Source: Candidatus Saccharimonadota bacterium
Lineage (GTDB): Bacteria > Patescibacteriota > Saccharimonadia > Saccharimonadales > Saccharimonadaceae
DNA length: 63,243 bases
Assembly (NCBI GenBank): GCA_017514905.1
Contig: JAFWIK010000026.1
Span: forward strand, 1 to 63,243
Direction: 5' to 3'
This document shows, one piece after another, positions 16,541 through 30,966 of the stretch (within the stretch, counting starts at the first letter, position 1; each line of letters opens with the position of its first letter). Under the pieces are notes generated by a model that saw nothing but the letters and a program-made list of their open reading frames with translations, made no database searches and had not been told where the DNA came from. The translations under genes and the position numbers were made by a program.

Positions 16541-16552
16541 TTTGATTTTTAG

Positions 16553-16580
16553 TTTACAATTTTTGGGCTTATGCTATAAT
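16553..16580 (+). promoter_or_regulatory. Promoter of the BY-kinase/phosphatase pair
   Basis: TTTACA at 16553-16558, 16-nt spacer, TGC-TATAAT ending at 16580. AAAAGGAG follows as ribosome-binding site. Confidence 0.85.
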
Positions 16581-16600
16581 AGAGGAAAAGGAGTTATTGA

Positions 16601-17974
16601 ATGGAAGAAATAAACATTAAGGATTTTTTTAACTACCTGAAGCACTATATTTTGGGTTTTATTATAGTGCTTTTTCTAGCAGTGTCGGGTGTGGTAGTCT
16701 ATGATTTGATGGTCAAAAAGCCAGTTTATCAGGCGCAAACGACGGTAGTAATTGCCAAATCTGATAACACAGAAATAGAGAACTCGGCGGCGACGCTAAA
16801 TGATATTAATGCCAGCCAGAAGCTAGTTTCGACTTACGGTGAGATTGCAAAAAGTGAGTTGGTCCTAAATCAGGTGATTGATAATCTAGGGCTAGACGAG
16901 AGCGTGACGGAGCTTAGTAAAAATTTGACGGTTAAACCGGTAGATGAGACGTCGATTCTGAGTATTTCGGTGCGTGATCCGAAGGCACGGCTCGCGGCGG
17001 CGATTGCAAATGAAATTGCGAAGGTATTTGAAAAAGAAGTGACGACAATTTACAAAGTGGAGAACGTAACGCAGCTGTCGGTGGCGGCAGAGCCAAGTGC
17101 GCCAGCTAATAATACGTTGGTGCGAGATATCATTCTAGCGATTGCGATTTCGATTCTCGTGGTAGCTGGGTTTGCCTTTATTCGTTTTTATCTGGATGAT
17201 ACAATTAAACATAATGACGATACTGAGAAAATGGTGGGTCTTCCGATCACCGGACGGATCCTTAAGAGCGAAACGAAGTTTAAGCGTTCTTCGAGCGAAT
17301 TGGTGGTAGATAAATCACCGAAGGCAATCGTGAGCGAAAATATCAAGAGCCTCAGGACGAACTTACAGTTTACTTCGGTGGATCAGGATATGAAAACGGT
17401 TCTTGTGACCAGTACGAATGCGGGTGAGGGCAAAAGTTTCGTGTCGGCAAACTTGGCGATTTCCTTTGCACAGGCCGAAAAGAGCGTGCTACTTGTAGAC
17501 TGTGATATGCGGCGAGGTCGGGTGCACCGGATGTTTAATTTGCAAAATACAATTGGTTTGTCTAATCTGCTTACAGGGGATTTGAGTGGTCTCGGTACTT
17601 ATATTCGCCCGACCAAGATTCCGTATCTAGATGTGATTACCTGCGGGACTTATCCGCCAAATCCAAGCGAGTTGCTTGCTTCTAAGAAAAACAAAAAGTT
17701 AGTGGGGATGCTGAGAGATCATTATGATATTGTAATCTTTGATGGAGCACCGGTAGGTGGTTTGGCTGATTCGGTGATTTTATCTGGCTTTGTGGATGAG
17801 ACTTTAATTGTGGTACGGGATGGTATGACGACGAAGGCCGATTTGATTACGGCGCGTGATGCGATGGAAAAGGTAGGCGCAAAGATTGCCGGTCTAGTTT
17901 TCAACGCAGTTAATCGTAAGTCGACTAAATATTATAATACTTATTATTATTACGGTGGTTCTCAGAAGAAATGA
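16601..17974 (+). CDS. Fused Wzz-type chain-length regulator and BY-family tyrosine kinase (CpsC-CpsD)
   Basis: Regulates polysaccharide polymerisation. One 457-aa chain holds both halves that are separate in most Gram-positives: an N-terminal Wzz domain between membrane helices at ~16-36 and ~175-195, and a cytoplasmic kinase with Walker A STNAGEGKS (271-279), Walker A' VLLVDCDMR (296-304), Walker B IVIFDGAP and a C-terminal tyrosine cluster (KYYNTYYYYGG, ~443-453) that is the expected autophosphorylation site. The overlapping downstream phosphatase gene is its usual partner. Confidence 0.93.
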   Translation: MEEINIKDFFNYLKHYILGFIIVLFLAVSGVVVYDLMVKKPVYQAQTTVVIAKSDNTEIENSAATLNDINASQKLVSTYGEIAKSELVLNQVIDNLGLDESVTELSKNLTVKPVDETSILSISVRDPKARLAAAIANEIAKVFEKEVTTIYKVENVTQLSVAAEPSAPANNTLVRDIILAIAISILVVAGFAFIRFYLDDTIKHNDDTEKMVGLPITGRILKSETKFKRSSSELVVDKSPKAIVSENIKSLRTNLQFTSVDQDMKTVLVTSTNAGEGKSFVSANLAISFAQAEKSVLLVDCDMRRGRVHRMFNLQNTIGLSNLLTGDLSGLGTYIRPTKIPYLDVITCGTYPPNPSELLASKKNKKLVGMLRDHYDIVIFDGAPVGGLADSVILSGFVDETLIVVRDGMTTKADLITARDAMEKVGAKIAGLVFNAVNRKSTKYYNTYYYYGGSQKK

Positions 17975-18684
17975 TAGATATACATTCACACATTTTGCCG
18001 GGTGTGGATGATGGAGCTAGGGATTTTGATGAAAGTATCGAAATCGCCAAGTGGTTGGCGCGTCAGGGTGTGACGGATTTGATTGCGACGCCGCATTATA
18101 TCGTAGAGAGCGATTTTATGTCGCCGCGGGCAGATAATTTGAAGCTTTTAAATGAATTGCAGCATAGATTAGATGCGGCCGGTGTGAAGCTGAGACTGTA
18201 TCTTGGAAATGAAATCTATATTAACAAATTTATTGATCGGCTAGTAGAGGCGGAGGAGATTTCGCCGTTAGCGAATAGTAAATATTTGCTGGTAGAATTG
18301 CCGCTGCATACGGAATTTTCGAATTACGAGGGGTATCTATGCGATCTCAATGCGAAGGGCTACCAGGTGATTTTGGCACATCCAGAGAGGTACGAGATAG
18401 TCCAAGAGGATTATCAAAAAGCGCGGGATCTTTATGAAGACGGGATTTTGTTGCAATGTAATCTGAGAAGTGTGGTGGGACATTATGGTAAAGAAGCGGA
18501 GCGCGTGGTAAAGCGGTTAGCGCGGGACAAAATGATTTTTACGTTTGGGAGTGATACGCACCGGGTTGGCAGTAGTTACTATTTGGTGCAGGCGCAAAAA
18601 AAGCTGACGCGCTATTATAATCCGCGAGAACTATCGATACTTCTAAGTATCAATATGAAAAAAGTTCTAAATAGTGGTTTTTAG
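17971..18684 (+). CDS. CpsB/CapC-type PHP-domain tyrosine phosphatase
   Basis: Metal-dependent phosphatase that removes phosphate from the BY-kinase tyrosine cluster. The 237-aa protein opens with MIDIHSHILPGVDDGA, whose HxH (residues 5 and 7) and Asp residues bind metal, followed by IATPHYI, LAHPERYE and FGSDTHRVG, all PHP-family ligand blocks. It overlaps the kinase gene by four bases (ATGA), so the two are translationally coupled. Last gene before the spc operon resumes. Confidence 0.92.
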   Translation: MIDIHSHILPGVDDGARDFDESIEIAKWLARQGVTDLIATPHYIVESDFMSPRADNLKLLNELQHRLDAAGVKLRLYLGNEIYINKFIDRLVEAEEISPLANSKYLLVELPLHTEFSNYEGYLCDLNAKGYQVILAHPERYEIVQEDYQKARDLYEDGILLQCNLRSVVGHYGKEAERVVKRLARDKMIFTFGSDTHRVGSSYYLVQAQKKLTRYYNPRELSILLSINMKKVLNSGF

Positions 18685-18695
18685 TAACAGAGGTG

Positions 18696-18724
18696 TTTAC
18701 TTTTGAAACTGGGTATGGTATAAT
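18696..18724 (+). promoter_or_regulatory. Promoter of the rplF-rplO segment
   Basis: TTTACT at 18696-18701, 17-nt spacer, TGG-TATAAT at 18719-18724. It gives the displaced half of the spc operon its own start. Confidence 0.85.
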
Positions 18725-18757
18725 GGTTTTGATATTAATTAAAAATAAGGGATAAAT

Positions 18758-19294
18758 ATGAGTCGTATCGGAAAACAACCCATCGAGATTCCGGCGGGAG
18801 TGACAATTACGGTCGGCGACAAAGAGATTACTGTCGTTGGCCCGAAAGGTCAGCTCATTGTGCCGGTCCAGCCTAAAACTAAGGTTTCTATCGATGGCAA
18901 CGTGGCTACTGTCACCCGCGAGGATGACGAGCCAAAGACCCGTGCTTGGCATGGGCTACAGAGGGCGCTTCTTAATAACGCCGTCATTGGTGTAACCAAA
19001 GGTTACGAGAAAAAACTTGAAGTAAATGGCGTAGGTTTTCGTCTATCTGGTGGTGGCCAGGAGATTGAGATGGCGCTGGGCTTTTCGCATCCAGTGAAAT
19101 ATCATGCTCCCGAAGGCGTGCAGCTAGCTACCAACAAGATGGAAATTACCGTTTCGGGCATCGATAAGCAAAAAGTCGGCCAGGTGGCAGCGGAAATCCG
19201 CGCATTGAAGAAGCCGGAACCATACAAGGGTAAAGGTATTAAATATGTCGACGAAGTGATCCTTCGTAAGGCAGGAAAGGCGGGTAAGAAATAA
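18758..19294 (+). CDS. rplF: 50S ribosomal protein L6
   Basis: L6 lies near the GTPase-associated centre. 178 aa, standard length, with SRIGKQPIEIPAGV at the N-terminus, GVTKGYEKKLEVNGVGFR in the middle and KPEPYKGKGIKYVDE at the C-terminus, the site contacting rRNA. TAAGGGAT precedes the ATG. First gene of the ribosomal segment displaced by the polysaccharide island. Confidence 0.97.
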   Translation: MSRIGKQPIEIPAGVTITVGDKEITVVGPKGQLIVPVQPKTKVSIDGNVATVTREDDEPKTRAWHGLQRALLNNAVIGVTKGYEKKLEVNGVGFRLSGGGQEIEMALGFSHPVKYHAPEGVQLATNKMEITVSGIDKQKVGQVAAEIRALKKPEPYKGKGIKYVDEVILRKAGKAGKK

Positions 19295-19623
19295 TGTTAG
19301 CAAAATTTAGAGCAAAAAGAACACGTGCCAAGATTCATGGTACTTCAGATAGACCGCGCCTTTCGGTGTATATTTCGAATCGCCACATTGTAGCGCAGGT
19401 AATTGATGATGATAAAAAAGTCACGCTTTGCTATGCTACGACTGTAGGTGAAAAGCTAGACGGGACGATGACCGAAAAAGCCGCCAAAATTGGCGCAGAG
19501 ATTGCAAAAAAGGCAAAAGCCGCAAAGATTAAGCGCGTAGTGTTTGATCGTGGTGCTAAATTATATGCGGGGCGGATGTCAGCTTTAGCTGATGCAGCTC
19601 GCAAGGAAGGATTGGAGTTTTAA
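19294..19623 (+). CDS. rplR: 50S ribosomal protein L18
   Basis: L18 binds 5S rRNA together with L5. 109 aa, slightly short because the basic N-terminal arm is reduced. Blocks seen: RPRLSVYISNRHIVAQVIDD and VVFDRGAKLYAGRMSALADA followed by RKEGLEF. The start overlaps the rplF stop (TAATG). Confidence 0.96.
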   Translation: MLAKFRAKRTRAKIHGTSDRPRLSVYISNRHIVAQVIDDDKKVTLCYATTVGEKLDGTMTEKAAKIGAEIAKKAKAAKIKRVVFDRGAKLYAGRMSALADAARKEGLEF

Positions 19624-19624
19624 G

Positions 19625-20476
19625 ATGGCAGAAACTGAGAAAAAGGCCCCGAGAGTAATCAACAAATCTGGTACTCTCAAGATGGACGACAAAACTGCCG
19701 CTACTCGGCAGGCGCGCGACATCGCTGGGCGCAAAATGGAGCGTAGGAGTCGCCGTGATCGTGGGCGTGGTGGTAATGCTGGTCCAAAGGAATTTGATGA
19801 AATTACTATTGCAGTGGATCGGGTTTCTAGAACCGTGGCTGGTGGCCGCAGAATGCGGTTTAAGGCACTCGTCGCGATGGGTGATCACAAGAATCGGATT
19901 GGCATTGGTGTAGCTAAGGGTAACGACGTGACGACAGCCGTTGCCAAGGCTGGCACGAAGGCCAAGAAGTCGATGATTACTTTTAAGACCGATGGCGAGA
20001 CGATTTGTCACGAGACTCGGACCAAGGTGACCGGTGCAGATGTTTTGATGAAACCGGCGGCACCTGGTACTGGGATTATCGCTGGTGGTACCGTGCGGGC
20101 AATTATGGGCCTCACGGGAGTAAAGAATTTGATTTCGAAGTCGCTGGGCTCGACCAACAAGGTAAACATTGCTTATGCAGTGCTCGAAGGTTTGCGTCAG
20201 CAAGTTAAAAGAAGCGAATGGGTCGGATCGAAAGCTACCGTTAAGCCGGCAGTAAAGGCTGAGGCTCCCAAGGCCGAGACGGCAAAGCCAGCCGCAAAGG
20301 CTGAAGCAAAAGTTGCAAAGCCAGTGACCAAAGCTGCAAAGCCAGCGGCTAAACCAGCTGTCAAGAAGCCAGCTGCAAAGCCAGCGGCTAAGTCGGCTAC
20401 GGCCAAGAAGCCAGCAGCGAAGGCTGCAAAGGCGGCTCCTAAAAAAGCGGCGAAGTCTGAAAAGGAGAAGAAGTAA
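19625..20476 (+). CDS. rpsE: 30S ribosomal protein S5 with long C-terminal tail
   Basis: S5 contributes to decoding accuracy and mRNA unwinding. The canonical part (about residues 50-205) has GPKEFDEITIAVDRVSRTV, GRRMRFKALVAMGDHKNRIG and GTGIIAGGTVRAIMGL. The last ~75 residues are Ala/Lys/Pro repeats, so the protein is 283 aa against the usual 165-230. Start at 19625 (MAETEKK), two bases after the rplR stop, rather than 19592, which would overlap L18. The rplO start overlaps its stop (TAATG): rpmD (L30), which normally lies between, is absent, a hallmark of CPR bacteria. Confidence 0.95.
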   Translation: MAETEKKAPRVINKSGTLKMDDKTAATRQARDIAGRKMERRSRRDRGRGGNAGPKEFDEITIAVDRVSRTVAGGRRMRFKALVAMGDHKNRIGIGVAKGNDVTTAVAKAGTKAKKSMITFKTDGETICHETRTKVTGADVLMKPAAPGTGIIAGGTVRAIMGLTGVKNLISKSLGSTNKVNIAYAVLEGLRQQVKRSEWVGSKATVKPAVKAEAPKAETAKPAAKAEAKVAKPVTKAAKPAAKPAVKKPAAKPAAKSATAKKPAAKAAKAAPKKAAKSEKEKK

Positions 20477-20943
20477 TGAAATACAATGATTTAGAGGTGA
20501 ACAAAAACGCTCGTCCGTCTCGCAAAGGCCGTGGCATTGCCGCTGGCCAGGGCAAGACGGCCGGACGTGGTACCAAAGGTCAGAAATCTCGGGCTGGTCA
20601 TCACAAGATGCCGGCAGGATTCATGGGCGGCCAACGTGCGATGATGCAAGCAGTACCAAAGCTCAAAGGATTTAAGTCTTTTCATCCGAAGGCTGAAGTG
20701 GTCTATACTGATCGTTTGAACGATCTTAAGGGTAAAATTGATAATTTTGCGCTGGCAAAAGCAGAACTGATCTCTACGCCTTTTGCTAAGGTCAAGGTGA
20801 TTTCACGCGGGGAACTTTCAGCGAAGATTAACCTAGAAACCCAGTTTGTTTCGAAGACTGCCAAGGCAGCAATTGAGAAGGCTGGTGGTTCGTTTAAGAA
20901 GGTTGAAGTTCCGAAAAAGCCTAAGGCCACTGAGCAAAAATAG
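20476..20943 (+). CDS. rplO: 50S ribosomal protein L15
   Basis: L15 assembles late into the 50S core. 155 aa with the glycine-rich family N-terminus (ARPSRKGRGIAAGQGKTAGR and KGQKSRAGHHKMPAGFMGGQ) and the C-terminal block ISRGELSAKINLETQFVSKT. A terminator follows directly, and secY, the normal next gene, is 40 kb downstream. Confidence 0.96.
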   Translation: MKYNDLEVNKNARPSRKGRGIAAGQGKTAGRGTKGQKSRAGHHKMPAGFMGGQRAMMQAVPKLKGFKSFHPKAEVVYTDRLNDLKGKIDNFALAKAELISTPFAKVKVISRGELSAKINLETQFVSKTAKAAIEKAGGSFKKVEVPKKPKATEQK

Positions 20944-20950
20944 ATAAGAA

Positions 20951-20975
20951 AATAACCCCGTAAGGGGTTATTTTT
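20951..20975 (+). terminator. Rho-independent terminator after rplO
   Basis: AATAACCCC / GGGGTTATT stem, 4-nt loop, T-run to 20975. A TATAAT at 20980-20985 directly downstream is the likely -10 of the next gene. Confidence 0.9.
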
Positions 20976-21008
20976 GTGGTATAATAATAGAAAATAAGTG
21001 GAGTTTAT

Positions 21009-21734
21009 ATGGACGAAAAAGAGTTAAAAACCAGTACCAAACAGAGGGTGTTCATTATTATCATCGCAGTGATTATGTTGGCGTCGATCATAGCAAGCTA
21101 TGCGGCGATTGTGATTTCTGGTAGCGTGAATTCTGGGGAAGAAGAATCTCAGATTGACGAGGCCAAAGTAGCAGAGTATCAGGCGGCTTACGACGCGAAG
21201 TTGAAGGAATTTCAAAAAGCAACGGACAGCGACTATAAGAAGTTTGTGAGCCATAAAGGTGATGTAGTAAAGGGTTACAACGAGGCGGCGGCAAATGAGA
21301 ATGGCTTAAAGACGAAAGATATTGAAAAGGGCTCAGGCGAAACTGTGTCGGAGAGTAATTACCTAGCCTATTACGTAGGATGGTGCGCAGATGAGTCGGT
21401 GTTTGATTCGTCATTTGATGATAATGATAAGCCGACTGGATTTCGGATAGCAATCGACCCTTCGGTGGGGATGATTGAAGGTTGGAATCAAGGAGTTAAA
21501 GGTATGAAAATGGGTGGCATTCGCGAGATTACGATTCCGGGGGAGCTAGCGTATGGTGAATCCAAAGAGATTTGTGGAGGTAAAAATAAGCCACTGAAGT
21601 TTATGGTGATGACAGTGGCTAATAAAGACCCGCTAAAAGCATTGGCAAAGGAGCTTGAAACAGCTACTATGAGATTACAGTATGCTTCCTTTGGCGTAGA
21701 TTATGACGAAATGATGAAAACTTCTGACCAATAG
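21009..21734 (+). CDS. Membrane-anchored FKBP-type peptidyl-prolyl isomerase
   Basis: Predicted folding helper for exported proteins. The 241 aa have one N-terminal membrane helix (residues ~14-37, VFIIIIAVIMLASIIASYAA), a charged coiled linker, and a C-terminal FKBP domain (~100-210) with the family block GMIEGWNQGVKGMKMGGIRE followed by ITIPGELAYG. GTGGAG precedes the ATG. It follows the ribosomal segment from its own promoter. Some FKBP active-site aromatic residues are not conserved, so isomerase activity is not certain. Confidence 0.85.
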   Translation: MDEKELKTSTKQRVFIIIIAVIMLASIIASYAAIVISGSVNSGEEESQIDEAKVAEYQAAYDAKLKEFQKATDSDYKKFVSHKGDVVKGYNEAAANENGLKTKDIEKGSGETVSESNYLAYYVGWCADESVFDSSFDDNDKPTGFRIAIDPSVGMIEGWNQGVKGMKMGGIREITIPGELAYGESKEICGGKNKPLKFMVMTVANKDPLKALAKELETATMRLQYASFGVDYDEMMKTSDQ

Positions 21735-21786
21735 GGAAGAAACAGATAACTTTAGTTTGTATTTAATTGTTTTTGTGCTGTTGATA

Positions 21787-21815
21787 TTGACATTTTATAC
21801 TGTTTGTGCTATAAT
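21787..21815 (+). promoter_or_regulatory. Strong promoter with long leader
   Basis: TTGACA at 21787-21792, 17-nt spacer, TGC-TATAAT at 21810-21815. A ~70-nt leader runs to the ATG at 21891, with GGGGGTTAGAG as ribosome-binding site. Confidence 0.88.
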
Positions 21816-21890
21816 TAGGTCATAGGTTGGAAAAAGGGGTCCAGCCTAAGCAATTATCATTATCTTCATAGTTTATAGGGGGTTAGAGAC

Positions 21891-22316
21891 ATGTTAGAAA
21901 TGATTAACAACTATTCATCTAAATTCTTCATCGTGTTTGTCATGAGTTGCGCTTTGATGGCGTATCTCGGATCAAAGCAGTATAAACTTCTTTCAAACGG
22001 TGACGTGAGAAGAGTGTTCAAAGATCGTTTTTACGAGATTTTGAGCGTGGTATTCTCCATCATCAACTGGCCTCTCTTCATGGTTCGTGAGAGTAAGGCT
22101 ATAGAAGCGCTGCAGAGAAGCGGTGTGAGTGAGGTTCTGCTGAATGTGGAAGAGGATAAGTCAATCGGCACGGTAGCGGTAATGCTGGTGCTATTCCCGA
22201 TTATCTTTTTCTGCTTCGGTAAGCTCGCTAGCCTGGTGAAGCTTGGTCGTTTTTACGACTGGGAAGAGCCGGCGGAAGACGTCGTTGAAAAAGATAAGGA
22301 GAAGGAGGATAAATAG
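21891..22316 (+). CDS. Small two-helix membrane protein, unknown
   Basis: Not recognised. The 141-aa product has a hydrophobic N-terminal segment (FFIVFVMSCALMAYLG, ~12-27), a cytoplasmic-looking middle (DVRRVFKDRFYEIL, then FSIINWPLFMVRESKA), a second helix (VAVMLVLFPIIFFCFGKLA, ~97-115) and a Glu/Lys-rich tail. It is monocistronic, between a consensus promoter and a terminator, with a long leader and G-rich ribosome-binding site, unlike the many leaderless genes here. The strong promoter suggests high expression. Confidence 0.75.
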   Translation: MLEMINNYSSKFFIVFVMSCALMAYLGSKQYKLLSNGDVRRVFKDRFYEILSVVFSIINWPLFMVRESKAIEALQRSGVSEVLLNVEEDKSIGTVAVMLVLFPIIFFCFGKLASLVKLGRFYDWEEPAEDVVEKDKEKEDK

Positions 22317-22321
22317 TTACA

Positions 22322-22356
22322 TCCCTCGGTGCATTAAGTACCGGGGGAATTTTTTA
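22322..22356 (+). terminator. Rho-independent terminator
   Basis: TCCCTCGGT pairs with ACCGGGGGA (one G-U pair) around a 9-nt loop, followed by a T-run. Confidence 0.85.
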
Positions 22357-22390
22357 TGAAAAAACTATTGTATTTGTGATTATGCTAGTG

Positions 22391-22396
22391 TATAAT
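22391..22396 (+). promoter_or_regulatory. -10 box with leaderless start
   Basis: TATAAT is followed by six bases (GAAATT) and the ATG at 22403; no ribosome-binding site fits between. Confidence 0.75.
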
Positions 22397-22402
22397 GAAA
22401 TT

Positions 22403-23878
22403 ATGTCAAAGAGGCAATTGCGCGGTTTTTGTAAAACGTTTCTAGGTGTCGGAGCGGGTGTTTTTGCGTCTGCTCTTTTTGCTAGTAGCTTAGCTTCCGC
22501 CGTCACCTATCAAGATAGCGTAGACGTTTCCTTTACCTTTAATCCTTCTATTTCCGTAGATCTCTCTACTTCAGAATTAGTCATTAGTGAACTCACTCCA
22601 GGCACCTCAGCTGATAGTAATGCTCTTACTGTTAGTGTCTCTACTAACTCAGCCTATGGTTACTATCTCACTGCTACTGCTGGTACTTCCTCTACTTCTT
22701 CTAATCTCGTCAATTCATCTAACAATAACTATGTCTTTTCTAGTATTGCTACTAATGCTGATTTATCCGCTTTAGCAGTTGATAATACTTGGGGCTATCG
22801 TACATCTTCTGATAATGGCACTACTTGGTCTAACTACTCAGGTCTACCTAGAGATAATAATGACAATGGCGAAACTGGTAAAGCTCTGATAGAAACTAAT
22901 GCTCCTACCGACAGTAGAACCCTCAAATTCAAAATCGGTGCTAAAGCCTCTGCCGACCAAGCTGCTGGTACATATACTAATACCATCAACTTCTATGCCG
23001 TAGCTCATGAGGCACCAGAACCACCAGTCGGCCCAGATCCTCCAGTTACTTGCAATACTCCAGTCCCAAACATCACTTATATGCAAGATATCACATCAAG
23101 CAATAGATCCACAGTTCTCGCCTCACTCACTGAAGAAGCTCCATATTACCTAAGAGACTCTCGTGATAACGAGCCTTACTGCGTATCTAAGCTAAAGGAT
23201 GGTAATCTTTGGCTTCTAGATAATCTTAGATTAGACTTAAGCGATGCTGATACATTAGCTTCTGTAGCAGAAACTAACACTAATGCTTCTGCTACGAGCT
23301 TAGGCTATCTCAAGAATGGCGGTGGTACATCAAGTGATAAATATGCCATCACAGGTGTAGTAGAATGGACTGATAGCCCAACCTATGCTTCAGACCACAG
23401 CTATTCAGATCCACTTATTGCTACCAGTGGTAGCGGTTGGTCTAAAGATACTACCACTACTAGCTATGGCAATGGTTCTGGTAAGATAGGTGTCTATTAC
23501 AATTATTGTGCTGCTTCTGCTGGTTCTTACTGTTATCCATCGAGTAGCAGTACTGGTGATGCCACCGAGGACCTTTGTCCAGCTGGGTGGAGAATGCCTA
23601 CAGGAAGCACTGCTGGTGAACATGGTATCTTATATAATATTTACAACACTACAACAACAGCTACTGATACTGCCTCATTACAATATAATCTTTCTACTCC
23701 TCTGTCGGGCTGCTTCTACTCTGGCTCGGCGTACAATCAGGGCACGTACGGCTTCTTCTGGTCTTCTACTCGGTACGATAACAGCTACACGTACTACCTC
23801 TACGCGAAATCGTCCGCTGCATACCCTACCTACAACGATCGCAGCTACGGTCGATCTATAAGATGTGTACTTAAGTAG
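22403..23878 (+). CDS. Secreted surface protein with C-terminal FISUMP domain
   Basis: 491-aa exported protein. A signal peptide (CKTFLGVGAGVFASALFASS, cleavage near ALASA) leads into a Ser/Thr-rich beta domain (VDVSFTFNPSISVDLSTSEL, ~35-205), a Pro-rich hinge (EPPVGPDPPVTC) and a FISUMP/C-type-lectin-like domain (~225-491: LKDGNLWLLDNLRLDL; LCPAGWRMPTG; FFWSSTRYDNSYTYYLYA; RSIRCVLK). FISUMP domains occur in large paralogous surface families. The start is set at 22403 by the -10 box six bases upstream. The last ~55 codons switch to C/G-ending codons, unlike the rest of the gene, which may mark a diversified or exchanged cassette. Confidence 0.82.
   Translation: MSKRQLRGFCKTFLGVGAGVFASALFASSLASAVTYQDSVDVSFTFNPSISVDLSTSELVISELTPGTSADSNALTVSVSTNSAYGYYLTATAGTSSTSSNLVNSSNNNYVFSSIATNADLSALAVDNTWGYRTSSDNGTTWSNYSGLPRDNNDNGETGKALIETNAPTDSRTLKFKIGAKASADQAAGTYTNTINFYAVAHEAPEPPVGPDPPVTCNTPVPNITYMQDITSSNRSTVLASLTEEAPYYLRDSRDNEPYCVSKLKDGNLWLLDNLRLDLSDADTLASVAETNTNASATSLGYLKNGGGTSSDKYAITGVVEWTDSPTYASDHSYSDPLIATSGSGWSKDTTTTSYGNGSGKIGVYYNYCAASAGSYCYPSSSSTGDATEDLCPAGWRMPTGSTAGEHGILYNIYNTTTTATDTASLQYNLSTPLSGCFYSGSAYNQGTYGFFWSSTRYDNSYTYYLYAKSSAAYPTYNDRSYGRSIRCVLK
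23700..23866 (+). repeat. Composition-shifted 3' segment, candidate variable region
   Basis: Nearly every tyrosine codon from 23730 onward is TAC, while TAT is common upstream. The segment codes the aromatic, Ser/Tyr/Asn-rich end of the lectin-like fold, where diversity-generating retroelements place their variable repeat. No template repeat or reverse transcriptase is in this window. Confidence 0.35.
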
Positions 23879-23957
23879 TCACACTTTCGGCAGGATTACC
23901 CTCTTCCTTACTTTCCTCTCTTTCTGCCCGCTGTATAAAAAATGGAAAAACTAAGCT

Positions 23958-23977
23958 ACCGCGCCTCAAAGCGCGGT
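23958..23977. other. GC-rich hairpin downstream of the FISUMP gene
   Basis: ACCGCGC / GCGCGGT form a 7-bp stem with a 6-nt loop about 80 bases after the stop. No T-run follows, so it is not a standard terminator. The rest of the 199-base gap shows only the sbcB promoter. Confidence 0.6.
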
Positions 23978-24042
23978 CGCGGGAAAGCCTAGCATCCGCC
24001 CCGCCTAGCAACCGTGAGCATGATTAATCGAACCTGGTGGGG

Positions 24043-24071
24043 TTGTAATTTGGGTGCGGTTGTGATATATA
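24043..24071 (+). promoter_or_regulatory. Promoter of sbcB, leaderless
   Basis: TTGTAA at 24043-24048, 17-nt spacer, TGA-TATATA at 24066-24071, then six bases to the ATG. Confidence 0.6.
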
Positions 24072-24077
24072 GGCTTA

Positions 24078-25439
24078 ATGATGGATAGGAAGACGTTTTT
24101 CTTTTATGATTTAGAGACTTCGGGGCTCCGAGCGCGAGAAGATCGGATTATGCAGTTTGCTGGGCAGCGGACGGATATGGATCTTAACCCAGTGGGGGAG
24201 CCAGTGAACGTGCTGGTGAAAATGACGGACGATGCTTTGCCATGCCCGTCGGCAATTAATGTGACGAAAATTACGCCGCAAGATACTCTGCGAGATGGGA
24301 TGAGTGAAGCGGAGTTTTGTAAATACGTAATGGAAGAAGTATTCGTGCCAGAAACAGTGGCGGTGGGTTATAACACGGTGCGGTTTGATGATGAGTTTAT
24401 GCGGGCGACGCTGTGGCGGAATTTCTACGAGCCGTATGAATGGGAATGGAAAGACGGTCGGAGCCGGTGGGATCTGCTGGATGTAGTGAGGCTGACGCGG
24501 GCTCTCAGGCCAGAAGGTATCGAATGGCCGTTTCGCGAAGACGGGGCGCCGACGAATCGGCTGGAATTAATCACGAAGCTAAATGGTGTATCGCATGAAC
24601 ATGCACATGATGCGCTGTCTGACGTATTTGCGACGATAGCAGTAGCAAAACTGGTTCGGGAAAAACAGCCAAAATTATTTGATTATTTATACAAAATGCG
24701 AGAAAAAAATGCGGTTAAAAAGTTAGTAAATCTAGACAATAAACAACCGTTCGTATATGCTTCTGGAAGATATGCAAATGAGTTTAATAAGACTACGGTA
24801 GCGGTTCCACTCACAGCGGGGCGGAATGGAAATGTACTAGTATATGATCTTCGATATAATTTAGAAGAAGTTTTGGAGCAGGAGACTAAATTAGATTCGG
24901 CTTCTCATTCTACGATGTTCCCGATTGTGAAAGAGTTGTGCTTCAATAAGTGCCCGGCGGTGGCGCCGATGAGTGTGTTAGATGAAGGCAATGGGTGGAA
25001 AAAGATTGGGTTGGATAAAGAAACGGTGGAGCATAATTTGCAGATTTTAATGAAGCATCCGGAGTTTGCGGAGGCTAAACGAGCAGAATATGAAAACAGG
25101 CCGGAGTTTCCAGCAGCGGTAGAGCCGGAAGGGGCACTTTATGACGGATTTTTAAATGATCATGATCGGATTAAGGTGGCTGCGGTGAGGAATGCTGAGC
25201 CGCGCAGATTAGCAGATTTTCATCCTGATTTTGACGATGAAAGATTGCCGGAACTACTGCTTCATTATAAAGGGCGGAACTTCCCAGAAACTTTGTCGGA
25301 ATCAGAAGCAGAGGCTTACGAAAAATATCGACAAGAACGCTTGAAGCGCCAAGAAGCGAACTTCATTAAAGAACTAGAATGCGTCAAAGATGACTTTATC
25401 AAAGACGAATTAATGCTTTATATGCAATCTTTGGTCTAG
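24078..25439 (+). CDS. sbcB: Exodeoxyribonuclease I
   Basis: 3'-5' single-strand DNA exonuclease used in recombination and mismatch repair. DEDDh motifs are intact: FFYDLETSG (Asp11, Glu13), GYNTVRFDDEFM, and HEHAHDALSDV with the catalytic His/Asp. After the exonuclease domain (~1-200) come the SH3-like and ExoI C-terminal regions (LYDGFLNDHDR; LPELLLHYKGRNFPETL). 453 aa compares with ~475 in E. coli. ATG at 24078 or 24081; the first is used because of its spacing from the -10 box. It converges on ldh across a long palindrome. Confidence 0.92.
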   Translation: MMDRKTFFFYDLETSGLRAREDRIMQFAGQRTDMDLNPVGEPVNVLVKMTDDALPCPSAINVTKITPQDTLRDGMSEAEFCKYVMEEVFVPETVAVGYNTVRFDDEFMRATLWRNFYEPYEWEWKDGRSRWDLLDVVRLTRALRPEGIEWPFREDGAPTNRLELITKLNGVSHEHAHDALSDVFATIAVAKLVREKQPKLFDYLYKMREKNAVKKLVNLDNKQPFVYASGRYANEFNKTTVAVPLTAGRNGNVLVYDLRYNLEEVLEQETKLDSASHSTMFPIVKELCFNKCPAVAPMSVLDEGNGWKKIGLDKETVEHNLQILMKHPEFAEAKRAEYENRPEFPAAVEPEGALYDGFLNDHDRIKVAAVRNAEPRRLADFHPDFDDERLPELLLHYKGRNFPETLSESEAEAYEKYRQERLKRQEANFIKELECVKDDFIKDELMLYMQSLV

Positions 25440-25440
25440 G

Positions 25441-25608
25441 AGCTTAAATTAGTATATTTGTTTTGTATTTGAGCAAACCCGAGAATTAAAAAATAATTTC
25501 ACAGATTTGAATCTTGTACTGTAATACAAGTGAAAATCTGCCTGAAATTATTTTTTAATTCTCGGCGTGCAGCGAGTTTACAAACAAATATACTAATTTA
25601 AGCTTTTT
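25441..25608. repeat. 164-bp nested palindrome between convergent genes
   Basis: Outer arms 25441-25463 and 25582-25604 match perfectly over 23 bp; inner arms 25479-25501 and 25543-25565 match perfectly over another 23 bp; a 7-bp stem (25502-25508/25534-25540) and a 6-bp tip complete the fold. TTTTT follows the right arm, so it can terminate sbcB transcription. It fills the whole gap between the sbcB and ldh stops. The right half contains TAATTCTCGG, also present in the GC-rich elements at 46158 and 62767. Confidence 0.9.
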
Positions 25609-25610
25609 AA

Positions 25611-26525
25611 CTAAAACTTGACGGACTTAATGGCCTTTTGTAAAGCATTGATGGACTTTTGTAGTTCGACTCCTTCGTGTTCGGAGAGCGGAAGGTCGAG
25701 ACGACGGATGATGCCGCGACGGCCGACGACTGTAGGCCAGCCAAAGGAAGTTTCGGAGAATTGATCATAAGACGAGACTGGCAGTACGCGCATTTCGTCG
25801 TTTAGAATGCAGTTTAGAATCTGGACGACGCAAGTGGCGATACCATAGTAGGTAGCGCCTTTTTTCTCGATAATGTCGTAGGCTTCGTTTTTGACGAAAT
25901 CAGAAATACCGTTACGGACGTCTTTTTTGAGTAGGTCATTCACTTTTTGGCCACCGAGATCAGCAAGAGACCATACGGTAAGCTCGGTGTCGCCGTGTTC
26001 GCCAATCTGATAGGCGTGGACGGATTTTGGATTAACGTCTAAGTAACTAGCGATACGGGTGCGGAGCCGGGCAGAATCAAGAACGGTGCCGGAACCGATG
26101 ACGCGTTCGGCGGGGAGGCCGGAGTATTTATAAGTGAGATAGGTAAGCACATCCATTGGATTAGTAACAACGAGAAAAATGCCATTGAAGCCGGAATCCA
26201 TGATTTGCTCAATCATGCCTTTCAAAATATTGGCGTTTTTTTCGAGTAGATCCATGCGGGATTCACCAGGCTTTTGGTTGGCGCCAGCGGTGATGACGAC
26301 CACGTCGCAATCTTTGGCGTCTTTATAAGTGCCGTTTTTGATTTTGACGTAGCTCGGTGCGACAGCCAGGGCGTCTTTTAAGTCCATGGCTTCACCTTCG
26401 GCGTCATGGGCGATAATGTCAGTAAGAATGATTTCGTTGATTGCGGTGCGCTGGTTTAAAATAGCAAACGCAATCGATGCGCCAACATTACCAGTCCCAA
26501 CAATCATGATTTTATGATTATCCAT
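25611..26525 (-). CDS. ldh: L-lactate dehydrogenase
   Basis: Reduces pyruvate to lactate, regenerating NAD+ in a fermentative cell. 304 aa from MDNHKIMIVGTGNVG: Rossmann GxGxxG at residues ~9-14, VITAGANQKPGESRMDLL with the Gln that marks lactate rather than malate specificity, VVTNPMDVLTYL, DSARLRTRIA, and the catalytic His in IGEHGDTELTVWS. The start at 26525 is preferred over 26561 because a TGC-TATAAT box lies six bases upstream, making the mRNA leaderless, and the longer start would fall in the promoter. It is transcribed divergently from the DUF2207 gene. Confidence 0.95.
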   Translation of the reverse strand: MDNHKIMIVGTGNVGASIAFAILNQRTAINEIILTDIIAHDAEGEAMDLKDALAVAPSYVKIKNGTYKDAKDCDVVVITAGANQKPGESRMDLLEKNANILKGMIEQIMDSGFNGIFLVVTNPMDVLTYLTYKYSGLPAERVIGSGTVLDSARLRTRIASYLDVNPKSVHAYQIGEHGDTELTVWSLADLGGQKVNDLLKKDVRNGISDFVKNEAYDIIEKKGATYYGIATCVVQILNCILNDEMRVLPVSSYDQFSETSFGWPTVVGRRGIIRRLDLPLSEHEGVELQKSINALQKAIKSVKF

Positions 26526-26531
26526 GTTTAC

Positions 26532-26585
26532 ATTATAGCATAAGCAAGATAAATGTGACAATAAAAAATGGTTTTGATGTATAAT
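26532..26585. promoter_or_regulatory. Overlapping divergent promoters of ldh and the DUF2207 gene
   Basis: Minus strand: TTGTCA (26561-26556), 18-nt spacer, TATAAT (26537-26532). Plus strand: GTGACA (26555-26560), 19-nt spacer, TATAAT (26580-26585). Both use the same central bases as -35, so the two start sites should compete. Confidence 0.7.
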
Positions 26586-26591
26586 AATGGT

Positions 26592-28475
26592 ATGAAAAGA
26601 GTAGGGATAATTATAAGTATATTATTAACTTTTTTGTTGACGCAGCCGGTAGGGGCGGCGAATACACAAAATTTTTATTTTGAAGATTTTACGGGAGATT
26701 ATTATTTGTCGAAGCGAGATGATGGTGTTTCGCATCTCAGAGTTAAGGAAAAGTTGACGGCGATTTTTCCGGATTATGATCAAAACAAAGGTATTTGCCG
26801 GATGATTCCGTTTACCAATCAGGGTGGCGCTAATGTAACTTTGCCAGATCTATCAAAAGACGACGTTAAACTTACTAGAAATGGTAAGGCTGAGCCGATT
26901 TACAGTATTGAAAAAACTGGCGACGAAGACAAGAATGAGGGATATTATACGGTGTGTACAGGTACGGAGGAATATGTACGTGGTAAACAAGTATACGAGC
27001 TGGAATACAATTTTGAAAAGGTAGTGACGGAGTTTGAAAAGGATGGTAAAAAATATCAGGAACTGTATTGGGATGCCAATGGTAATGGCTGGCAGCAAAG
27101 GTTTAATAAGGTAACGGCTAGACTGCATTTTGAAGACGAGAATGTATATGATGGACAAAGTTGGTGCTATGTAGGTAAATATGGGTCGAATAATCAGACC
27201 AGATGCAAAACTTCGGAACTAGGAGATGGTTTAGAATTTTCGACAGGACAGCTGGGCGTGACCGAGAGTTTGACTTTTGCAGTTCTAATTAAAGAAGGCA
27301 GTTTCGTGGTGCCGGAGCCAGATAAAGATTACATTTTTGTAATTGTTATGATTTTGACGGCGGTGCTTGCGGTAGGTTTGATCGTGTTTCTGTTCGTGCG
27401 TTTTATGAAGACGCGCGAGAAGGCGCATTACTATAAGGGGCTGTTTAATGAGCCGGAATATCAGCCGAGTAAAGATTATAGTTTGCCGGAAATGGCGGAA
27501 GTGTACCTAGGTAAGAAAAAAGACATGAAAGTAGCGATGCTACTAGATCTAGTAGTGAAGAAAAAAATTGAATTTCAAAAAGTTGATGATAAAAAGTGGA
27601 AGATACTAGTAAAAAATTTGAAGGATGTGAGCGGTGACTATATGGATCTTTTGTCGATTTTAAATGGTGGGTTGGCGCCGAAAGAGGGTGACGAAATTGA
27701 GCTGAAGAGCCGGACAGCGAATACCACATTGATTACCTTAAGATCAACTATGGAAAAGAAAATCGTGAATGCCTTGAAAGAAGATGAGCTGGTGGAAGAA
27801 AAATATCATTTTGGTGATAGCAAAAAACGGGGTGTTGGTAATGTGATTGCGATGGTGCTCATTGTGGTGCCGTTTTCAATTTCGCTGTTTGCTGTGATCG
27901 CGGGGATTCTAGAAAGTGTGACGGGCTTTGGAGGATTGTATGGTAAGGTGTACGTGGGAGTGGAAGCGTTTTATCCGGTGATGATGGGGATTGTCACGGT
28001 AACGACAATTATTGCGACGGCATTAGCCGATGCGGCGGCGCGCTATGCGAAACATACAATGAAGGGTCTAACGGCTTCGCATTATATGGAAGGGCTAAAA
28101 CTGTATATTGGTATGGCAGAGGCGGAGCGGATGAAAGTGCTACAAAGTGTCAAAGGCGCGGACACCTCGGCGGAGGGAATTGTGAAATTATACGAAAAAC
28201 TATTGCCTTATGCTGCGGTGTTTGGTCTAGAAGAGAGTTGGCTAAAAGAGATGAAAGATTATTGTAAAGTAGAAGAGGTGAAAGAGCCGGACTATTTGAT
28301 GGCAGGAATTGCGGCGTCAGACATTTCGCGGAGTTTGAATCGGGCGGCTAATATTGCTACAGCGTCGACAGTGATGTCGAGCTCGGGTGGTGGATCGTCT
28401 TCGGGATTTTCGGGTGGTTTCGGCGGTGGATTCTCCGGCGGCGGTGGAGGCGGTGGTGGAGGCGGCGGCCGTTAA
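26592..28475 (+). CDS. DUF2207-family membrane protein
   Basis: 627-aa predicted membrane protein of unknown function. Signal peptide (IIISILLTFLLTQPVGA), an extracytoplasmic beta-rich DUF2207-like domain (~25-240), a membrane helix (VIVMILTAVLAVGLIVFLFV, ~255-275), a cytoplasmic region (YLGKKKDMKVAMLLDLVVKK), two further helices (~420-485), and a Gly/Ser-rich end (GFSGGFGGGFSGG...) typical of this family. The start at 26592 lies six bases from TATAAT; the upstream ATG at 26568 would precede the transcription start. It is divergent from ldh and monocistronic. Confidence 0.88.
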   Translation: MKRVGIIISILLTFLLTQPVGAANTQNFYFEDFTGDYYLSKRDDGVSHLRVKEKLTAIFPDYDQNKGICRMIPFTNQGGANVTLPDLSKDDVKLTRNGKAEPIYSIEKTGDEDKNEGYYTVCTGTEEYVRGKQVYELEYNFEKVVTEFEKDGKKYQELYWDANGNGWQQRFNKVTARLHFEDENVYDGQSWCYVGKYGSNNQTRCKTSELGDGLEFSTGQLGVTESLTFAVLIKEGSFVVPEPDKDYIFVIVMILTAVLAVGLIVFLFVRFMKTREKAHYYKGLFNEPEYQPSKDYSLPEMAEVYLGKKKDMKVAMLLDLVVKKKIEFQKVDDKKWKILVKNLKDVSGDYMDLLSILNGGLAPKEGDEIELKSRTANTTLITLRSTMEKKIVNALKEDELVEEKYHFGDSKKRGVGNVIAMVLIVVPFSISLFAVIAGILESVTGFGGLYGKVYVGVEAFYPVMMGIVTVTTIIATALADAAARYAKHTMKGLTASHYMEGLKLYIGMAEAERMKVLQSVKGADTSAEGIVKLYEKLLPYAAVFGLEESWLKEMKDYCKVEEVKEPDYLMAGIAASDISRSLNRAANIATASTVMSSSGGGSSSGFSGGFGGGFSGGGGGGGGGGGR

Positions 28476-28513
28476 GGAACTGGCCTTTGATTTTGAGCGA
28501 GCAAAATTTGATA

Positions 28514-28542
28514 TTGATATTATGAAAAAGTTATGCTATTAT
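28514..28542 (+). promoter_or_regulatory. Promoter
   Basis: TTGATA at 28514-28519, 17-nt spacer, TGC-TATTAT at 28537-28542. GAAGGAA precedes the downstream ATG. Confidence 0.7.
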
Positions 28543-28590
28543 GTTTAGCATAAGCTTAATAATTAATTAATTAATTTTGAAGGAATAAAA

Positions 28591-29535
28591 ATGGATCCAA
28601 CTACTAACCCTACACCAACTCCTAATCCGACGCCAGGCCCGACGCCGGCACCTGCGCCTGCAGCACCGACGGCACCGGCTACACCAGAGCCAACAGCTCC
28701 GGTTGCACCAGCGCCAGCGACGCCTGCTCCTGGACCAGCTAATCCTGCACCGGTTAGTCCTGCTTTAGAAACGCCAGTGAATCCGATTGTGAATCCAACG
28801 GCTCCGGCGGGTGCTCCAGGTGCTCCAGTGAATCCAGCGAATCCAGTGAATCCTCCTGTGAATCCAGTGATTCAACCAAATGGTCAGGGTAGCGTGGCGG
28901 CGACGGATCCTATCATGATGCCAGAGGCTCCGACTCCTCCAGATCCGATTGAAGAAGAGTTGAAGGCGCCAATGAAAGCGGCAGACCCAGTTCCTGGTTC
29001 GATTGGTTCGGCAGTATCTGGTCCAGCTGGTACGCCGGCAGAAATCAATCCAGTGGAATCGACTGAAAATCCGTTTGCAAAACCAGGACAGACTCCGAGT
29101 GTGTCATTTGGTGACCCAGCTGGACAGCCAGCTGATCCAGCCGCGGGTGCGGATAAAAAACCGGATGCTAAAAAATTAACTGCTAATAAGAATACTCTGA
29201 TTGCCCTGATTGCTGTGGCGGCAGTGGTTGTAATAGCGCTTGTAGTGATGCTAGTTGTGGCATTAATGCCAAGTGGTAATAATAATGGTTCTAGCAATGG
29301 CAATACTGGCACTGAGACAACTATTGATAATGAAGAAGAGGATGACGAAACTGAACTAGAGGATTCTTCAAAGAAAAGCTCTTCAAACAGCAGCTCAAAT
29401 AAGACGACTGAAGAGGAAGAAGAAGAAATAGTAGAACCAGAAGAAGAATCAGAAGTAGAAGATGAAGAACAAGATTCTACCGTAGAGGTATTACCTGAGG
29501 AAGAGGAAGTCGAGACGATTGACATTGTCGAATAG
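28591..29535 (+). CDS. Pro/Ala-rich single-pass membrane protein, unknown
   Basis: Not assignable to a family. The 314 aa start with ~100 residues of Pro/Ala/Thr/Asn repeats (NPTPTPNPTPGPTPAPAPAA and similar), continue through a less repetitive region, then one membrane helix (LIALIAVAAVVVIALVVMLV, ~207-227) and an acidic Ser/Glu-rich C-terminus. There is no signal peptide, so the Pro-rich part is probably cytoplasmic and the acidic tail outside, or the reverse. The 3' end holds the -35 box of metG. Confidence 0.75.
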   Translation: MDPTTNPTPTPNPTPGPTPAPAPAAPTAPATPEPTAPVAPAPATPAPGPANPAPVSPALETPVNPIVNPTAPAGAPGAPVNPANPVNPPVNPVIQPNGQGSVAATDPIMMPEAPTPPDPIEEELKAPMKAADPVPGSIGSAVSGPAGTPAEINPVESTENPFAKPGQTPSVSFGDPAGQPADPAAGADKKPDAKKLTANKNTLIALIAVAAVVVIALVVMLVVALMPSGNNNGSSNGNTGTETTIDNEEEDDETELEDSSKKSSSNSSSNKTTEEEEEEIVEPEEESEVEDEEQDSTVEVLPEEEEVETIDIVE

Positions 29536-29547
29536 ATATTGTAAAAT
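29519..29547 (+). promoter_or_regulatory. Promoter of metG, leaderless
   Basis: TTGACA at 29519-29524 (inside the upstream coding end), 17-nt spacer, TAAAAT at 29542-29547, six bases, ATG at 29554. Confidence 0.88.
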
Positions 29548-29553
29548 ATTCTT

Positions 29554-30966
29554 ATGAAAAAATACGTGACTACGGCTATTCCGTATGTGAATGGTGCTCC
29601 GCATATTGGACATGCGGTAGATTATTGCTTGGCAGATACGGCGGCGCGTTATTTTCGCTTAAGGGGTGATGAGGTTAGATTCCAAGTTGGAACGGATGAG
29701 CATGGCAGTAAAATTTTTCAAAAGTCGGCGGCTGAAAATTTGCCAGTAGAAACATATGTTAAAAGGAACTCAGATACTTTTAAGACTTTTATCAGTAAAC
29801 TGAATATTTCTTATACGGATTTTATTAGGACTACAGATCCGGAGCATATTAAGAGATGCCAAGATATTTGGCGAAAGCTAAGTGATCATATTTACTTAGC
29901 AAAGTATGAAGGTTGGTATTGTACGGGTTGTGAGGCGTTTATTACAGAAAAAGAGTACAAAGAAAATCATGGTGTTTGCCCGGATCACCAGATTCCGTAC
30001 GAAAAAGTCAAAGAAGAAAACTATTATTTAAGGATTTCAGATTTTAAGGATCAAATTCGTGAAGCGATTTCTAGTGATAAAATGTTGATTTTGCCAGAGT
30101 TTAGGAAAAAGGAAATTTTGAAGCTTCTCGATGAGTCACCTGATGTTTCAATCTCGCGGCCGCGGGAGCAGTTGACGTGGGGCGTTGAAGTGCCAGGAGA
30201 TGCTTCGCAAGTGATGTATGTATGGATTGACGCGCTCTCGAATTATATTACGGTGTTAGGCTATCCAGATCAGGATATTAGTGATTGGTGGCCGGCGGCT
30301 GCACAGTTTGTGGGTAAAGATATTTTGAGATTTCATGCGATTATTTGGCCAGCGATGTTAATGGGGCTAGGCTTGCCATTGCCAAAAGTATTGGTCTCGC
30401 ATGGGATGATTTTGGCAGATGGCCAGAAGATGTCAAAGTCAATTGGCAATGTGGTGGAGCCGGTAGCAGTGATCGACAAATATGGATTAGATGCTTTTCG
30501 CTATTTCTTTTTGCGGCACGTTGATACTTTTGCTGATTCGGACTATACAGAAGCTAAATTTGAAGAAGCTTATAATAATGAACTAGCGAATGATTTAGGT
30601 AATTTAGTACAAAGACTTGCAACTCTAGCGAAGAAAAATGGTATAAAAAGAGAAGGCACTAGTGTTTTGAAGCTTTCTGATGGTTACTGTGAGTTAATGG
30701 ATCGATTTGAATTTAACAAAGCGTTTGATTATGCTTGGGAAAAAGTACAGAATTTGAACAAAAGAATTGATGATGAAAAGCCTTGGATGTTAGCAAAAAA
30801 TGGAGAAACAGATAAACTGAAAAAATGTTTGAATTCGTTAATTAAGGACTTATTACAAGTAAGTCTAGAACTAACTCCATTTATACCAGACGCTTGTGAA
30901 AAGATCACGAAAGTTTTTGAGAATCCGATTGCACCGCCGGAAACGCCCCTTTTCCCCAAAAAATGA
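29554..30966 (+). CDS. metG: Methionyl-tRNA synthetase
   Basis: Charges tRNA-Met. Class I synthetase of 470 aa with the HIGH motif in YVNGAPHIGHAVD (~8-20), a zinc knuckle of one pair (WYCTGCEAFITEKE ... GVCPDH, ~125-150), and KMSKS at DGQKMSKSIGN. A DALR-like anticodon domain follows (NELANDLGNLVQRLATLA). The C-terminal tRNA-binding/dimerisation domain of ~150 aa found in E. coli MetG is absent, as in many short bacterial forms. The zinc ligands are kept, in contrast to rpoC, rpsN and rpmF. Confidence 0.96.
   Translation: MKKYVTTAIPYVNGAPHIGHAVDYCLADTAARYFRLRGDEVRFQVGTDEHGSKIFQKSAAENLPVETYVKRNSDTFKTFISKLNISYTDFIRTTDPEHIKRCQDIWRKLSDHIYLAKYEGWYCTGCEAFITEKEYKENHGVCPDHQIPYEKVKEENYYLRISDFKDQIREAISSDKMLILPEFRKKEILKLLDESPDVSISRPREQLTWGVEVPGDASQVMYVWIDALSNYITVLGYPDQDISDWWPAAAQFVGKDILRFHAIIWPAMLMGLGLPLPKVLVSHGMILADGQKMSKSIGNVVEPVAVIDKYGLDAFRYFFLRHVDTFADSDYTEAKFEEAYNNELANDLGNLVQRLATLAKKNGIKREGTSVLKLSDGYCELMDRFEFNKAFDYAWEKVQNLNKRIDDEKPWMLAKNGETDKLKKCLNSLIKDLLQVSLELTPFIPDACEKITKVFENPIAPPETPLFPKK

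Follow-up and report, generated by a model that had tools for sequence, protein, structure and literature searches.

Saccharibacteria have very small genomes and live on other bacteria, and the CPR lineage is reportedly enriched in diversity-generating retroelements (DGRs), an observation said to go back to Paul and colleagues in 2017. Patescibacteria are described as DGR-enriched by Roux et al. (2021), with one clade of reverse transcriptases (RTs) restricted to them and with CPR clade-2 targets that typically have no recognisable conserved domains; by its own account, this contig-based survey would not detect remote targets (PMC8144416). Targets of the latter kind are described in other systems. 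The TvpA DGR of Treponema denticola combines one template and RT with up to seven scattered targets, and some strains retain leftover targets without RT or template (PMC4891356). Cyanobacterial DGRs act on remote C-type-lectin genes at their 3' ends, the CLec paralogues being dispersed (PMC7517822), and Fib_succ_major is the domain of nine DGR targets listed from human microbiomes (PMC4159848). In the literature searched for DGRs together with Saccharibacteria, TM7, or FISUMP, the portions of text available describe no DGR system of Saccharibacteria with a set of FISUMP targets.

The stretch of DNA analysed here, referred to as the window, is a contig of 63,243 nucleotides (G000:C12) from the assembly GCA_017514905.1 of a Candidatus Saccharimonadota bacterium (G000; 700,269 bases in 26 contigs, 86.8% complete). 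It carries a FISUMP-domain gene whose 3' end is, in our reading, the variable region (VR) of a trans-acting DGR, with the window copy perhaps retired; we put the probability of this reading at about 0.88. The features of the locus, in window coordinates, are as follows.

22403..23878, + strand: FISUMP-domain gene, proposed remote DGR target; 491 aa, N-terminus hydrophobic and signal-peptide-like (by eye)
23051..23875, + strand: FISUMP / C-type-lectin-like C-terminal domain, predicted from an AlphaFold2 model (mean pLDDT 93.0) and structure matches
23696..23875, + strand: probable DGR VR, from A-bias against congener templates, the codon switch, and the own-genome family
23696..23767, + strand: 5' part of the VR, still template-like (differences in 0/55 non-A and 9/17 A-type columns)
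23768..23875, + strand: 3' part of the VR, off the inferred template (non-A changes 4/22, 6/18, and 7/20 in successive blocks); one codon shorter
23049..23985, + strand: probable domain-level exchange segment, much of its length resembling a non-syntenic paralogue of the sister species, the flanks resembling the syntenic orthologue

The gene has an alternative start, GTG at 22376, and its named relatives come from Candidatus Saccharibacteria MAGs, many of ruminant gut origin. The FISUMP identity named by the original prediction holds by homology: of five full-length paralogues scanned in the own genome, three pass TIGR02145 (46.6, 44.4, and 55.5 bits; the other two score 41.1 and 39.8), while the window protein itself lies below the curated cut-offs of both PF09603 (25.9 bits vs. 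33.9) and TIGR02145 (35.7 vs. 41.65). In the N-terminal half, residues 68-201 (22604-23005) weakly resemble NF058581, a Pam pilin domain of CPR bacteria; this match (E 0.0085) was rejected, as it falls short of the cut-off and was not seen in nine related proteins scanned. Elsewhere in the window, nested inverted repeats at 25425-25620 (39 nt, 82%; inner 23 nt, 100%) sit between an exonuclease gene and a lactate/malate-dehydrogenase-like gene, the latter named by eye.

A Foldseek search with the AlphaFold2 model of the C-terminal domain gave no matches at E <= 0.001. The ten best VIA-align matches, with Z-scores from 5.0 to 6.9 and every one below 8, are largely C-type-lectin-like domains, headed by the C-terminal domains of Legionella Lcl (Z 6.9) and Bdellovibrio Bd2740 (Z 6.0); seven of the ten (Z 5.0-5.9) are, judging by their names, presumably snake-venom or immune-receptor C-type-lectin-like domains. 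The model places the VR at the C-terminal end of such a domain, and agreement of the predicted fold with the usual fold of DGR targets is modest evidence for the assignment.

The codon switch that had been noticed at the end of the gene is borne out by counts. Of the 59 codons between 23700 and the stop, 39 have C or G in the third position, compared with 123 of 432 earlier (Fisher one-sided p = 2.7e-8), and 39 is the joint highest count of any 59-codon stretch in the gene. Tyrosine is encoded by TAC in 11 of 11 cases in the last 59 codons and in 7 of 26 earlier (p = 3.7e-5).

Sequence searches of the own genome, combined with fetched stretches, place the VR in a family. A DNA search with 23700-23878 yielded 11 places at E <= 10, eight of them (the window included) better than 1e-6; the seven further matches of this quality lie at dispersed loci, and a ninth, diverged copy is located on contig C23. 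Reading frames at the matching places finish in the same FISUMP tail. Contigs C24 and C13 each start inside a copy of the gene, and the contig end G000:C18:1-65 is identical to the initial 65 nt of C13, hence the repeated gene is a point at which the assembly breaks. The copies on own contigs C18, C7, and C23 are decayed.

Compared over 330 nt, C24 and C13 differ at 27 positions, all within 142-300, and are identical in the 141 nt before and the 51 nt after this variable stretch. With the template of the congener G004 as reference, the differences occupy 24 of 57 template-A positions and 3 of 126 others (p = 1.7e-11), and just 1 of the 27 is at a third codon position. Thus, related copies whose differences lie mainly on A-derived positions, proposed earlier as a check on DGR origin, do exist in this genome. 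Larger divergence with the same contrast is seen between C24 and C3 (30/59 A-sites and 10/124 other sites differ) and between C13 and C3 (27/59 and 9/124), C24 and C13 matching C3 at 79 of 103 aligned columns in the 120 nt upstream of the VR (upstream identities of VR pairs are gapped values, the ungapped ones being misleading at indels). The window differs from C24 at 32/58 A-sites and 18/122 other sites, and the expected excess of changes at A-derived positions is present with each of the five congener templates tried (p between 1.1e-5 and 1.4e-3), e.g., at 27/57 A positions and 22/114 others for the template of G051. For the diverged copies on C7 and C23, the A-bias appears only with codon positions 1 and 2 taken alone. 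As a control, 15 paralogue pairs were pooled upstream of the VR with the G051 gene as pseudo-template; there, 998 of 2401 A positions (0.42) and 1983 of 5516 others (0.36) differ, an A excess that is at most slight and far from the VR contrast.

The copies on C24, C13, and C3, as well as the sister-species orthologue, have in common a 3' end extending beyond the stop codon, a putative DGR 3' homing sequence. Some 80 nt past the FISUMP stop codon, at 23958-23977, the window has a GC-rich hairpin, ACCGCGC-NNNN-AAGCGCGGT, which occurs once in the window; among 310 loci, exact copies follow the FISUMP genes of the window, own contig C16, and the sister-species orthologue (8 overlapping loci) and are found nowhere else. 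The fold of this hairpin is ordinary relative to shuffled sequences (z -1.68), and it is a putative terminator or homing element.

Congeners carry the machinery that accompanies such VRs. Among the 174 genomes searched (own included), a match to the window VR at E <= 0.001 is present in 54 and RVT_1 over the cut-off in 96; 12 regions with a VR match and RVT_1 together were fetched, and ten repeat pairs were compared. Complete cassettes are present in the same genus, in the order target, accessory ORF, RT, template, with the last of these often inverted. Over nine of the ten cassettes, 206 of 214 template-to-target substitutions are at template A: 18/18 in L068, 25/29 in L069, 24/24 in L070, 19/20 in L071, 36/37 in L072, 21/22 in L074 (T on the compared strand, 3 gap columns aside), 19/20 in L077, 18/18 in L078, and 26/26 in L079. 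The tenth, L076 (G111), whose two copies differ at 44 positions with 9 gap columns, lacks the A-bias and stands outside this total. No long template/target pair was found inside the fetched regions of L073, which contains a masked stretch, and L075.

The accessory ORF upstream of the RT is about 250-340 aa long, and three of these ORFs have no Pfam family over the cut-off. A motif scan, which itself required a related motif, listed 36 RT ORFs (some being the same gene in overlapping loci), 31 of them with IGNx(T/S)SQ. In 14 aligned RTs, I240, G241, N242, S245, Q246, Y272, V273, D274, and D275 are invariant (IGN..SQ and Y.RYVDD-type); IGNxxSQ is what we take to be a mark of DGR RTs. No close viral source of the RT was found among the 80 listed of its 237 IMG/VR relatives, whose best-segment identity is at most 40%, compared with 40-70% between the first row of RT alignment A1 and the others. 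Several other RTs were seen in passing. The genomes G020 and G090, of about 0.8 Mb, have five RVT_1 matches each, several RTs for so small a genome. The RTs of L038, L039, and L040 (323-328 aa), with the best RVT_1 scores in the genus, are outside the motif list and possibly retron-like.

One template with many targets is observed in the congener G051, where the template and RT on its contig C7 are accompanied by 15 other VR-like places over eight contigs. All 14 aligned places are A-biased (C7:118113, where no reading frame was found, was omitted), and their other-site divergence ranges from 1/124 to 38/124, the gradient to be expected from frequent rewriting of some targets and its cessation in others.

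In the own assembly, at 86.8% completeness, no RT was found by the Pfam RT profile, by one congener RT, or by a 14-row DGR-RT profile; no accessory ORF was found with one congener accessory protein as query, and no template with three DNA queries against the 700 kb. A template near the gene was rejected as well, the sole VR repeat in window 20000-28000 being a 27-nt, 78% match. The earlier remark that neither template nor RT was visible thus applies to the whole assembly and not just to the stretch first shown, and the search proposed there succeeded only in congeners, which have both with the same target family.

Such absence is not confined to this genome. The DGR-RT profile was run on 20 VR-bearing genomes without RVT_1 and on the controls G068 and G051. 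Both controls and G082 were positive and the 19 others negative, 11 of these being at least 95% complete. As G082 has no RVT_1 row and yet an RT by profile, the RVT_1 negatives are weak and the DGR profile is preferred. That 19 VR-bearing genomes have no DGR RT by this profile implies either that assembly loss is common or that targets often outlive the RT. Either the cassettes dropped out during assembly, or RTs are acquired and lost by lineages that keep their targets. In G084 (95% complete, no RT found), a VR pair differs at 30/59 A-sites and 2/124 others, with 97 of 117 aligned columns identical upstream. The sister species G068 has its only detected RT next to a different template family (L088, G068:C7:13000-20000); its window-type targets, too, seem to be without a template in a 97% complete assembly. 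In G051, a contig end is no more than 1.5 kb away from 8 of the 15 places (p about 4e-7 with 11 contigs and 4e-6 with 15, genome size and contig number being rounded). The corresponding count for the own genome, 2 of 8 (p = 0.22), is no such excess; therefore, cassette loss by assembly is supported in G051 only.

The window copy has a composite history. Compared with the inferred own template, its VR has no non-A changes in the first 72 nt, whereas all 17 such changes fall past this point, and in the 3' part alone the A-bias is not clean. The 3' end common to C24, C13, C3, and the syntenic orthologue is missing. This orthologue (L122), from the sister species, is collinear with window 16545-29792 and retains a VR that is full-length and has a 3' end of the C24 type. 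Within the window gene, 23049-23500 is closer to the non-syntenic paralogue L123 (81-94%) than to L122 (60-74%), with 94% and 60%, respectively, at 23350-23500; 23879-23930 is 76% identical to L123 and 46% to L122; neither is clearly the closer one at 23500-23690 and 23930-23985; and from 23985 on the window is back to L122 (85-97%). The simplest account of these identities is an exchange of the FISUMP domain and its VR with those of a paralogue, in either of the two species, followed by drift of the end. Because the last part has non-A changes and the common 3' end is missing, the window copy may have been retired and may now be rewritten rarely or never. The evidence supports writing of the gene tail by a DGR at least in the past; of the proposed remote DGR target, the A-bias and the congener cassettes uphold the origin, while these two features of the 3' end leave present activity doubtful.

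The mechanism we favour would be as follows. An RT would copy the template repeat, misreading adenines, and the cDNA would replace the matching 3' ends of several scattered FISUMP genes, the outcome being a set of C-type-lectin-like proteins with differing binding faces. The own RT and template would be in the unassembled 13% or so of the genome, or would have been lost recently. The proteins would probably be situated at the cell surface and have the host, a partner, or a phage as binding target. Recombination, moreover, seems to carry the entire domain, together with the VR, from one paralogous locus to another.

Gene conversion between paralogues, named in the original prediction as the main alternative, does seem to have occurred, on the scale of the whole domain (23049-23985), as indicated by the mosaic of L123-like and L122-like segments. 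As the only source of diversity, with no reverse transcription involved, it is nonetheless very improbable: conversion copies blocks, which does not concentrate differences on template-A positions, any A excess in the upstream control is slight, and the complete machinery is present in congeners, where the changes are nearly A-only. Ordinary positive selection on the lectin surface together with biased codon use would also act at the end of a C-type-lectin-like fold, where the variable positions are and where new binding would be selected. It appears less probable still, since the C24/C13 pair has its single third-position difference and just three off the template-A columns, and selection is blind to the base carried by the template of another species.

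A different question is the present state of the family, which might be a relic, the DGR having been lost from the lineage so that the VRs, that of the window among them, only drift and recombine. The absence of RT and template from the own assembly, the 17 non-A changes of the window VR, the decayed copies on C18, C7, and C23, the spread of other-site divergence in G051, and the leftover RT-less targets reported in T. denticola (PMC4891356) are all compatible with such a loss. The identical flanks of C24 and C13 and their 3/126 non-A differences argue that rewriting was recent, and G084, with no RT found, has its own A-specific pair; we consider complete loss unlikely, if far from negligible, as a sub-case of DGR origin.

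Taken over the genus of gut Saccharibacteria, a tentative picture, less likely than not, is that a single DGR serves up to about 15 lectin-like genes of graded age, some freshly rewritten, some drifting after loss of the homing end, and some with swapped domains. This would be a renewable archive in the form of a gene family; in many lineages, the set of targets would endure through gains and losses of the RT, or with an RT provided from outside. Trans-acting mutation of a lectin-like set would let Saccharibacteria track changing partners or phages. On the practical side, remote targets of the kind missed by a contig-based survey (PMC8144416) are recognisable by comparison of paralogues, even where no RT or template has been assembled.

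Remote DGR targets are a known kind of system, to which the FISUMP set of Saccharibacteria adds a member. As in the TvpA system of T. denticola (PMC4891356), a single template and RT go with dispersed remote targets in the congener G051, but the phylum and the target family are different, the latter being FISUMP here, with 15 VR-like places in G051. The present set resembles the cyanobacterial CLec DGRs in its dispersed paralogous targets with a lectin at the 3' end, and differs in that CLec targets are often joined to signalling domains (PMC7517822). The Fib_succ_major example from human microbiomes, a lipoprotein from stool, carries an Mfa2 domain, and TM7 goes unmentioned in the available part of that report (PMC4159848), whereas the targets described here are dispersed and belong to Saccharibacteria. 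Finally, in contrast to the Patescibacteria DGRs surveyed before (PMC8144416), the targets in this genus are FISUMP genes and often remote.
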